Below, piece after piece: positions 8,071-63,811 of a DNA stretch of 64,000 nucleotides (position 1 is the first letter of the stretch; each line of letters begins with the position of its first letter). Source of the DNA: Bacillota bacterium (GTDB lineage: Bacteria; Bacillota; Clostridia; Peptostreptococcales; Anaerovoracaceae); assembly GCA_017522185.1 (NCBI GenBank), contig JAFWZZ010000001.1:1-64000 (forward strand), read 5' to 3'. Position numbers and translations under genes: made by a program. Under the pieces are notes generated by a model. It ran no database searches, had not been told where the DNA came from, and was given only the letters and a program-made list of their open reading frames with translations.

Positions 8071-8772
8071 TTAAAGCAGATATAACTTGATGATTTTGTC
8101 GATATAGTCCATGTTGATGGAGTTTTTACCTAAATCAAATGATGCGATAAAGTTATCCCACAGATAGTATCCCACTTGATGGAATTCTTCTATTCTGTTT
8201 ATATTTTTAAGACGGTAATCGTCCTCTTGCATTTTCCCGAAATGTTCCCAAATAAAGATTTTTCCATCCTTTGGCCGCTTGATAACAAAGTCAGGATAAA
8301 TATAGCGTCCATTCACATACATCTTAGATTCATATTTGAACTCAATACCATATGATGTCAGTGCCATAGCGATGAGCATTTCGGATTTCGAGGCAAACCG
8401 GATTCCATTCCAGATATGTACTCTGTGTTCATCATGGTATGTGTTTTGTTGTGCTTCTATGGATGCCCAATTGGAGTTTGTTTCAGCCAACGGACGGTAG
8501 CCTTTGATAGTTCGCTGTATAACAGGAATATTAAAATTGATGGCCTCAAGCTGACGTTGCAGAGTATCTCGGAAAAGATATTCATTTCTGAGTTTCTCCT
8601 CTTTTCGCAGGCTTACCAAACTCTTTCCTTTCCTTAAATAAAAGTATTTCTTTCCTTTTGCAGTTTTCTTTACTAATGTGCCCTTTGGCAACACGCGAAT
8701 TTGATTCTGAATACGATCTTTTTCACGCTCCAGAAAATGTAATTGCGCGATTAAGGTATCTTTAAACCACAT
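8071..8772 (-). CDS. Predicted PD-(D/E)XK-like nuclease, unknown role
   Basis: 233 residues. The N-terminal half (1-110) is helical, highly basic and likely coiled ('LEREKDRIQNQIRVLP', 'RKGKSLVSLRKEEKL'). The C-terminal half shows the restriction-endonuclease-like pattern: 'SKSEMLIAMALTSYGI' with a Glu, then 'YPDFVIKRP' with the Asp, a beta-strand 'IFIWEHFGKM' with Glu, and a lysine in 'RLKNINR'. This order matches PD-(D/E)XK folds, though the last motif reads W-E-H rather than E-x-K. Not part of an obvious operon; its 5' side holds hexamer array A. It may be a housekeeping or accessory nuclease; no methylase or defence partner is adjacent. Confidence 0.55.
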   Translation of the reverse strand: MWFKDTLIAQLHFLEREKDRIQNQIRVLPKGTLVKKTAKGKKYFYLRKGKSLVSLRKEEKLRNEYLFRDTLQRQLEAINFNIPVIQRTIKGYRPLAETNSNWASIEAQQNTYHDEHRVHIWNGIRFASKSEMLIAMALTSYGIEFKYESKMYVNGRYIYPDFVIKRPKDGKIFIWEHFGKMQEDDYRLKNINRIEEFHQVGYYLWDNFIASFDLGKNSINMDYIDKIIKLYLL

Positions 8773-8888: not shown

Positions 8889-9188
8889 GTTTTCATTAAG
8901 CGCTTATTTGTTTTCTTATGAAAATATTTTTCCAGAAAAAGAAAACTCAGCGATTCACCTTGCTCACATGTTTTCCTTTTCTTTAATTAGGTTTTCTGAA
9001 GAAAACTTTTATTGCATAATTGAAAACTAGCATCGGCTTTTATCATAATTGTTTTCAAATCTTGATATAACGTTTTCTATAGAAAACAAATCCCCAAAAT
9101 CCGAAAACTCTATCGGCAAAATCAAAGAATAGTTTTCCTTTTTATTATATAGTTTTCAATGGAAAACTTTTTACAGCAAAAGGAAAAC
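8889..9188. repeat. Array A: 81-bp periodic GTTTTC/GAAAAC palindromes
   Basis: The intergenic stretch 8773-9272 holds no gene. Palindromes of the form GTTTTC-N4-GAAAAC begin at 8910 (last base T), 8991, 9072 and 9152, that is 81, 81 and 80 bp apart. Each is flanked at exactly 15 bp by a further GTTTTC on the left (8889, 8970, 9051, 9132) and GAAAAC on the right (8941, 9022, 9103, 9183). The unit is GTTTTC-N15-GTTTTC-N4-GAAAAC-N15-GAAAAC (58 bp), with 23-bp spacers. The hexamers are conserved while the rest varies. A matching array lies at 25698-25916. Confidence 0.9.
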
Positions 9189-25697: not shown

Positions 25698-25916
25698 GTT
25701 TTCTTTGCGACCACTTTTGTTTTCTACAGAAAACGTTTCTGTTGTAATTAAAAACTATTACTGAAAAAACAAAAATTAGTTTTCCTATACCGATAATTTG
25801 TTTTCTAGGGAAAACTTTTATCTCACAAATGAAAATCTTTACTTGAAAAGACGAACCATTTTTCCTTTTTCGGAGATTTGTTTTCCCTCGAAAACGTTTC
25901 CTTCAAAAATGAAAAC
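25698..25916. repeat. Array B: second 81-bp periodic GTTTTC/GAAAAC array
   Basis: Occupies most of 25584-25976, between the divergent AI-2E and phosphodiesterase genes. Palindromes GTTTTC-N4-GAAAAC start at 25719, 25800 and 25880 (81 and 80 bp apart). Left outer GTTTTC copies are at 25698, 25779 and 25859 (TTTTTC). Right outer copies are at 25750 (AAAAAC), 25831 (GAAAAT) and 25911 (GAAAAC). Offsets are as in array A. Three complete units; the spacer sequence differs. Confidence 0.9.
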
Positions 25917-62956: not shown

Positions 62957-63811
62957 TCAATCGGAATAATATCTACGTTTGGTAATTTTCTTCATTTTGC
63001 ATTTGTCTACAATAGAAGATTTCACAAGAAAACCTCCTAAGCTTGTCTCTATGCAATACGCCTTCAATGGATTGTCCAGGGTTTGGATAAAATCGATTAA
63101 TTCTTCTTCTGACAAATGCAAATGCTGAACTTCTTCCCAGCCATCTCTTTCACTTAGAACCATTACAAGATACTCCTCGTCGGATTGACGGTCACAGTCT
63201 TCTTGGAAAATAAACTTAAGTTCGCCTAATGTCCATTCAATGTCTGCATCTGTCACATGTACGCTTCCTTTTGTGACATGCTCGAATTTTGGCAACAAAG
63301 TTTCTATCATATTTAAAGGATTGAAGTCAGGACGGTCTAATTGATCCCAATGATATAGTTTTCTATCCTTCTTTTCCGTATTGACTAATGTATATTTTTT
63401 TGTGGTATCATACTTGCATACAGAAAACTCATAATAACCTCTTCCTTTTTTCTTGTCGGTATATATGTATCTTTCCACCGGCACATATAATAAATTCCCG
63501 TCTTCAGAATAAAAAGGATACACATCTATAGCCTCATAACCTCTTGGCAAAGTCACCCTTAATCTTTGCTCCAAATCATCAAGAGAATACACATAAAAAT
63601 GTTTTCCGTTTTCCAAAGCAACCAGTTCTTTCTCATCAGGGCTGACGTCACCAGTATAAAGATACTGATAACCGCTAAAGATTTTCAATGGTACCTTTGT
63701 TATCCTGTCATAAATTTTCACACTGCCCCCTGTAATATGAATACTGTAATGTTCAGATGTAATCAAGAAATCCCAATTCAAATTATCTTCCTTAAACACT
63801 CTTCTCCGCAT
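62957..63811 (-). CDS. Hypothetical protein with beta-propeller-like repeats
   Basis: About 284 residues from the ATG at 63811 (GAGGTGAGGAAA upstream); the longer reading would overlap the preceding gene by over 70 bp. 'YTGDVSPDEKELVALENGKH' and 'FYSEDGNLLYVPVERYIY' look like WD40/DPP-type blades, so a beta-rich scaffold is likely. C-terminal 'RDGWEEVQHLHLSEEELIDF'. No function known; probably paired with the gene before it. Confidence 0.65.
   Translation of the reverse strand: MRRRVFKEDNLNWDFLITSEHYSIHITGGSVKIYDRITKVPLKIFSGYQYLYTGDVSPDEKELVALENGKHFYVYSLDDLEQRLRVTLPRGYEAIDVYPFYSEDGNLLYVPVERYIYTDKKKGRGYYEFSVCKYDTTKKYTLVNTEKKDRKLYHWDQLDRPDFNPLNMIETLLPKFEHVTKGSVHVTDADIEWTLGELKFIFQEDCDRQSDEEYLVMVLSERDGWEEVQHLHLSEEELIDFIQTLDNPLKAYCIETSLGGFLVKSSIVDKCKMKKITKRRYYSD

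Follow-up and report, generated by a model that had tools for sequence, protein, structure and literature searches.

An intergenic array of inverted hexamers beside a nuclease-like gene: a probable cognate site array and a proposed counterpart of REPIN-RAYT

The DNA considered here is a stretch of 64,000 nucleotides (the window) from a bacterial genome of 2.12 Mb in 35 contigs, labelled G000 in what follows. A gene for a 233-aa PD-(D/E)XK-like protein occupies positions 8071..8772 on the minus strand, with 117 bp between its start codon and array A (8889..9188, no strand assigned), a four-unit array that lies upstream of the gene and for which we propose the protein as partner. This gene, which is key to the explanation offered below, was absent from the account given in the original prediction; the position and four-unit layout given there for array A are borne out. 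Each unit of 57-58 bp reads GTTTTC-N15-GTTTTC-N4-GAAAAC-N15-GAAAAC, with inner cores at 8910, 8991, 9072 and 9152. With F for GTTTTC and R for GAAAAC, the start-to-start grid is F-21-F-10-R-21-R followed by 29 bp to the next unit, the unit-to-unit distance being 80-81 bp; 15 of the 16 hexamers are exact, the R at 8920 being GAAAAT with one mismatch, and a single F-F step is 20 bp and not 21. A twin with three units, array B (25698..25916, no strand assigned), is flanked by an AI-2E-family transporter gene on the minus strand and a metallophosphoesterase gene on the plus strand.

Allowing up to one mismatch, the core occurs eight times in the window (seven in arrays A and B, one at 63018), where shuffled sequence leads one to expect 0.27. 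A whole-genome pattern count found 17 exact GTTTTC-N4-GAAAAC cores in G000, every one within six arrays, and the reversed control pattern is found nowhere in the genome. The six arrays comprise 22 units and 88 sites, 76 of them exact, 12 with one mismatch and none missing, and the steps are similarly constant: F-R is 10 bp in 22/22, F-F 21 in 20/22, R-R 21 in 20/22 and R-F 29 in 14/16. Over the 22 units, mean column identity is 97.3% for the 24 hexamer columns and 52.5% for the 34 spacer columns, which supports the earlier suggestion that these are probably selected sites of a protein-binding type and not decaying tandem repeats. The unit alignment likewise agrees with the view that the array is unlike CRISPR and has two-fold unit symmetry, in that only the hexamers are kept and there are no near-identical repeats. 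The proposal that all sites lie on a single helix face holds within a unit, where the sites are in helical phase, and fails for the whole array, because, at 10.5 bp per turn, 81 bp make 7.7 turns, and the 29-bp inter-unit step leaves successive units rotated by about 100 degrees. Eight genes flanking the six arrays have no function in common, and class-2 arrays (described below) and those of relatives are also found between convergent genes; we therefore rejected the operator of a functional regulon as a candidate.

The C-terminal domain of the 233-aa protein is nuclease-like (residues 118-233; 8074..8421, minus strand), with conserved E131, P160-D161, W175-E176-H177 and Y186. Among 34 homologues, E131 is conserved in 33, and P160-D161, E176-H177, G179 and Y186 in all 34. 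The homologue alignment thus contains the E...PD...E core expected of PD-(D/E)XK nucleases, and the retention of these candidate catalytic residues argues for a probably active enzyme. Profile searches are less distinctive. The window protein has nothing above the Pfam cut-off, Vsr being below it (E 0.14), and no NCBIfam match. Among 23 family members, none of the Pfam families is shared by two: the best match is to a coiled-coil model (E 0.00086), and a TnsA-like match in one member is weak (E 0.048). An NCBIfam endonuclease model is found in two of the members (E 0.0072). There are weak matches to families of phage endonucleases and Holliday-junction resolvases (E 0.036-0.12). A PDB profile search gave the coiled-coil chain 7dtl as its best match, over the N-terminal half (E 0.053), and T7 endonuclease I (2pfj) as its second, over an RSxxE...YE...PDF stretch (E 1.1). 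In the PADLOC collection, residues 105-229 match positions 1086-1216 of the 1221 in PDC-S68 (E 3e-21). The weak sequence matches hint at a nuclease fold for the 233-aa protein. The Y1 transposase model is absent from the Pfam matches of both the window protein (E≤1) and the 23 members (E≤0.05).

At 53 array loci (33 + 20, a few of them with a single unit) we compared the proteins encoded on either side, and the family of the 233-aa protein turned up next to arrays repeatedly, in four genomes that represent three genera. XRE-type regulators and ABC ATPases recur there too, these being common genes of low similarity. Searching 349 genomes of the taxonomic family, we found ten close orthologues besides the window gene (E<1e-50, 39-45% identical), the next match being at 2e-31, and these eleven genes form one clade with support 100/96 in a tree of 57 of the 63 available rows, from which L262 and L265 (610 and 668 aa) were dropped, as were L253, L263, L264 and L266, which are without the domain pattern. 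A sequence profile built from the 22 units (R1) was used to search G000, its genus and the same family; at E≤1e-4 and with stricter filters, it places units of the window motif in only ten of the 349 genomes, belonging to four genera. Eight of these ten have the close gene, two have arrays only, three further genomes have the gene only and 336 have neither (Fisher p 1.5e-12). Both array-only genomes, G315 and G359, are incomplete (84% and 93%), so the missing gene may be a gap or a loss. The gene-only genomes are G004, G009 and G011; G009 is so classed by the strict R1 limit, yet has N5-type arrays in a lenient search, and in G004 and G011 the close gene is preceded by GTTTTCA-type sites. By eye, all 11 close genes have upstream half-sites of the GTTTTC, GGTTTC, GTTTC or GTTCC type, and 9/11 are reached by a fixed count of at least two inverted pairs with an outer span of 34-42 bp in their flanks. 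Their neighbours include V-ATPase subunit D in 4/11 and CorA in 3/11, with the window's subunit D and one CorA checked against Pfam. Two observations count against the association: G356 and G358 have GTTTTC arrays elsewhere and GTTCCAAAA-type sites beside the close gene, and G000 and G007 each have a second array class (GTTTC-type in G000, GTTTTC in G007) with no recognised partner gene.

The second class of G000 was found with the R1 profile at five places, with the same layout and GTTTC-N4-GAAAC cores. Among its copies, three show 88-92% identity over about 355 bp, and a fourth shows 82-85% identity with these over about 250 bp; all four (L114 at G000:C32:14170-14520, L115, L116 and L117, elements of 250-360 bp) have sharp, TIR-like ends, AAATTGGGATTTG and CAAATCCCAATTT. 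The L115 copy is without an 81-column stretch of the alignment, the length of one unit. Inspection by eye of the ends in the alignment of these four revealed no target-site duplication, and arrays A and B have no TIR recognisable in this way; the TIR-like ends are partly present at array C28. Class-1 arrays C28 and C34 are 74% identical over 260 bp, in inverted orientation, and two arrays of the paralogue motif TTCTAGAA, described below, are 86% identical over 205 bp. The most similar, recently copied arrays of G000 belong to class 2, which also counts against the association. From the identity of the class-2 copies and their sharp ends it follows that copies of some arrays have arisen at new places.

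Conservation in relatives was a further point of the original prediction, and here it stands in part. An exact two-unit GTTTTC array is found in none of 98 relatives, so that what species share is the layout and not the exact sequence. In G007 an array with GGTTTC/GAAACC hexamers retains the unit layout at the orthologous place, enclosed by the same two neighbours, a nuclease-like gene (39% identical) and V-ATPase subunit D; the place has thus been kept between G000 and G007 and the hexamer changed. In a lenient genus search with R1 (E≤1) all 13 genomes match somewhere, mostly weakly, G007 having 58 matches with GTTTTC and GGTTTC cores and G009 36 matches of the form GTTTC-N5-GAAAC. A second kept place was seen in two species of one genus, where L165 (G354:C139:23163-23409, two units) and L167 (G355:C5:61700-61755, one unit) have the same neighbours, 54-93% identical. 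Elsewhere the exact core pattern was found in 59 stretches of genome contigs, none of which has exact outer copies at 21 bp around its first match. Several are Paenibacillus palindromes with another layout, and others look like variants of parS. On the Paenibacillus contigs (L029, L031, L032, L040 and others) tandem GTTTTC-N4-GAAAAC palindromes, often 38-40 bp apart, stop just ahead of start codons, at an AGGAGG-like ribosome site. Contigs of Elusimicrobia/Endomicrobium and Omnitrophota (L043, L053, L054, L060, L061, L069, L079 and L080) contain GTTTTCACGTGAAAAC, which likewise resembles a parS variant.

The close orthologues are part of a much larger gene family. Homologues at E≤1e-10 occur in 208 of the 349 family genomes, often several per genome (G000 has five), and of 391 genomes sampled across the class, 29 have matches at E≤1e-8, four of them of this taxonomic family and the rest of seven others, in two of which the matching protein is longer than 600 aa. 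The flanks of many of these homologues contain other motifs, such as CGTGTCA, TTGTGTCA, GTGTTAA, TTCTAGAA, GGCCGAA, ACCTACT, GTCCGT and others. An over-represented upstream 7-mer (p≤0.005) was found in 13 of 28 regions, close and distant genes together, against 5 of 150 control flanks. The 28 are drawn from 34 loci (L177-L210), of which L191, L199 and L205 have short upstream DNA, L200 has no ORF, and L207 and L208 are absent; the misses include L210, where the stretch is inside a broken gene, and L209, where the array is downstream. L210 (G000:C26:90215-90730) is a nuclease homologue broken by an N-terminal frameshift, with GCAACC/GCATCC-type sites upstream, and L208, its sister paralogue in the tree, also has GCAACC sites by eye. 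The distant homologue L188 (G037:C123, upstream of 1274) is preceded, again by eye, by direct tandem repeats of about 105 bp that contain GGAGTAGG.

At least two inverted pairs spanning 34-42 bp are present in 35 of 63 nuclease-gene flanks and 38 of 186 controls (Fisher p 3.6e-7), where 26 of the 63 come from other families and the controls from this family only; an earlier start-to-start count gave 31/63 and 20/186. The 63 loci (34 + 29) include L262 and L265, with short upstream DNA, and both the 150 and the 186 controls are taken at array loci of this family (L114-L176), with flanks of GTTTTC-like arrays excluded. The split is 9/11 for close genes, 9/23 for other loci of the family search and 17/29 for those of the class search. 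We count it against the generality of the pattern that 28 of the 63 miss this count while a fifth or so of the controls reach it. The commonest span is 38 bp, with 33 pairs and a density of 4.9 per 10 kb where controls have 0.70; the histogram of spans has smaller peaks at 20, 28 and 60 bp, so the 38-bp ruler is not universal. Array A fits it, each F pairing with an R 30-31 bp on, for a span of 36-37 bp.

The prediction that a paralogue's motif is dispersed through the genome of its gene and through no other was tried on four motifs and held for three, with 0-1 pairs in other genomes and 0-1 per genome for reversed control patterns in all three confirmed tests. Pairs of TTCTAGAA number 48 in G000, in eight arrays of which one adjoins the C31 paralogue, one in G010 and none in ten other genomes. 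The pair TTGTGTCA..TGACACAA is found 19 times in G347, at five places (L232-L236; C3, C11, C12, C25 and C23 respectively), once in G000 and not at all in ten others; its inner spacer is 22 bp in 18 of the 19 exact pairs, with free spacer sequence. ACCTACT..AGTAGGT occurs 24 times in G469, at eight places of which one is upstream of the gene, and is absent from ten other genomes, seven of them of the same genus. For the fourth motif, GAATACA..TGTATTC, one pair was found in its own genome (G443), two in G469, one each in G703 and G347 and none in seven others; this test was badly designed, because the allowed spacer of 18-28 bp excluded the 14 bp of the local array. As far as sequence comparison can show it, then, many genes of this nuclease-like family are accompanied, usually on their upstream side, by an array of inverted 6-8 bp half-sites with a motif of their own, and the motifs of three paralogues are found at 5-8 places in their own genome and are practically absent from the genomes compared.

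We consider that array A is probably the cognate site array of the adjoining nuclease-like protein, and that the two exemplify a two-part system of a general kind. Binding of the half-sites, by a dimer spanning an inverted pair of 37-38 bp, would fall to the variable N-terminal half, and the conserved C-terminal domain would nick or cut DNA at the bound half-sites. Repair or recombination after such cuts could copy arrays to new places and keep existing arrays, and an array upstream of its nuclease-like gene may also control that gene. Hexamers would be fixed since the enzyme must recognize them, and spacers would be left to drift. Binding, cutting and spreading of the arrays by the protein are our inference.

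Other readings differ chiefly in what they ask of the protein. It could be a DNA-binding regulator or chromosome organizer with a nuclease fold, the arrays being operators or anchoring sites that are neither cut nor spread; the position of array A upstream of its own gene, the small number of arrays per genome (six, or eight for TTCTAGAA) and the places kept between G000 and G007 and between G354 and G355 all suit this, whereas the candidate catalytic residues kept in 33-34 of 34 homologues, the copying of some arrays to new places and the finding, from mechanical ORF calls, that class-2 arrays and those of relatives also sit between convergent genes do not, and we regard it as unlikely. A defence or restriction-like role, in which the nuclease attacks foreign DNA with paired sites and is itself titrated or controlled by the host arrays, would suit the presence of several paralogues with differing motifs per genome and the match of the C-terminal domain to the C-end of a candidate defence protein, PDC-S68; the rest of PDC-S68 is missing from the 233-aa protein, the host keeps intact sites, and protein matches at E≤1e-3 are confined to three phage and two plasmid records, which makes us give this role very little credence. 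A phage origin was considered separately and rejected, with six single matches in a pattern scan of viral contigs and two loci in a protein scan, over query residues 122-166.

The nuclease gene would be a bystander if the arrays were MITE-like elements moved through their TIRs by an ordinary transposase, with the hexamers as subterminal sites. The ends AAATTGGGATTTG...CAAATCCCAATTT common to four class-2 copies are what such elements would have, but arrays A and B have no TIR recognizable by eye, no target duplication was recognized, and paralogous nuclease genes beside their own genome-specific motifs would be left unexplained, so that we find this improbable. There might also be no trans-acting partner at all, the array being an ordinary tandem repeat or an RNA element, as its tandem arrangement and hairpin-capable core would allow. 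The small RNA-like repeat entertained in the original prediction did not survive: folding of the 22 units gives a 6-bp hairpin in which none of the six predicted pairs has both sides changed, which favours a site in DNA over an RNA element, and no Rfam family matches at array A. As fixed sites with free spacers, the gene-array co-occurrence and the motif predictions also contradict it, a partnerless repeat or RNA is scarcely credible.

Taken more widely, and for this taxonomic family and further families of its class, our reading is of a large chromosomal nuclease family with fast-changing specificity, in which each gene is tied to arrays of inverted sites in its own genome and the target can be read from the genome; on balance we lean towards regarding it as a convergent PD-(D/E)XK counterpart of REPIN-RAYT. 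No description of such a nuclease-array pair was found among the titles and abstracts listed in searches of the open PMC literature, and one may be in print elsewhere. One kind of domesticated bacterial repeat-enzyme pair, REPIN-RAYT, is known. If our reading is true, a second, unrelated kind would mean that such partnerships arise repeatedly, and the question of why hosts keep an enzyme together with its scattered sites would become testable in a new setting. It would also provide many nucleases with a recognition site that is evident from the DNA next to their gene, often on a 38-bp ruler, from which rules of protein-DNA recognition could be learned by comparison across the family, and would account for a class of puzzling intergenic arrays.

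Several known systems share single features with the pair. The GTTTC-N4-GAAAC core scaffold resembles the parS consensus (parS or Noc-type sites of ParB proteins); unlike those sites, the arrays have outer half-sites at 21 bp and an 81-bp periodicity, and their motif varies between paralogues. T7 endonuclease I aligns weakly through RSxxE...YE...PDF (2pfj), although the 233-aa protein has an additional N-terminal half of variable sequence and has WEH at the place of the E-x-K that is usual in PD-(D/E)XK nucleases; we know of no association of T7 endonuclease I or other such nucleases with scattered arrays. With PDC-S68, of about 1,220 aa, only the C-terminal nuclease-like domain is common. Like MITEs and small interspersed repeats (BOX, RUP, RU), the arrays are short, non-coding and intergenic, and four copies have TIR-like ends, but unlike MITEs they contain an internal fixed-grid array and have a chromosomal gene as partner, with no target duplication recognized. 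The closest comparison is with REPIN-RAYT, where, as two reports describe it, extragenic, nonautonomous inverted repeat pairs depend on a gene that adjoins copies of its own repeat, repeat type is matched to gene type, and the enzyme is single-copy and vertically inherited (PMC3116915, PMC8049555). In our arrays and the three paralogue motifs, too, inverted doublets lie in extragenic space and the gene adjoins its own repeat type, although not all homologues pass the counts. The differences are that the enzyme is PD-(D/E)XK-like, that the repeats are arrays of several site pairs, and that each motif has arrays at 5-8 places of a genome, compared with the 69-235 REPINs per E. coli genome given in one of these reports (PMC8049555). 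The absence of an HUH/Y1 transposase means that the nuclease-array pair is not itself a REPIN-RAYT member; we read it as a pair that may work like REPIN-RAYT with an unrelated enzyme.
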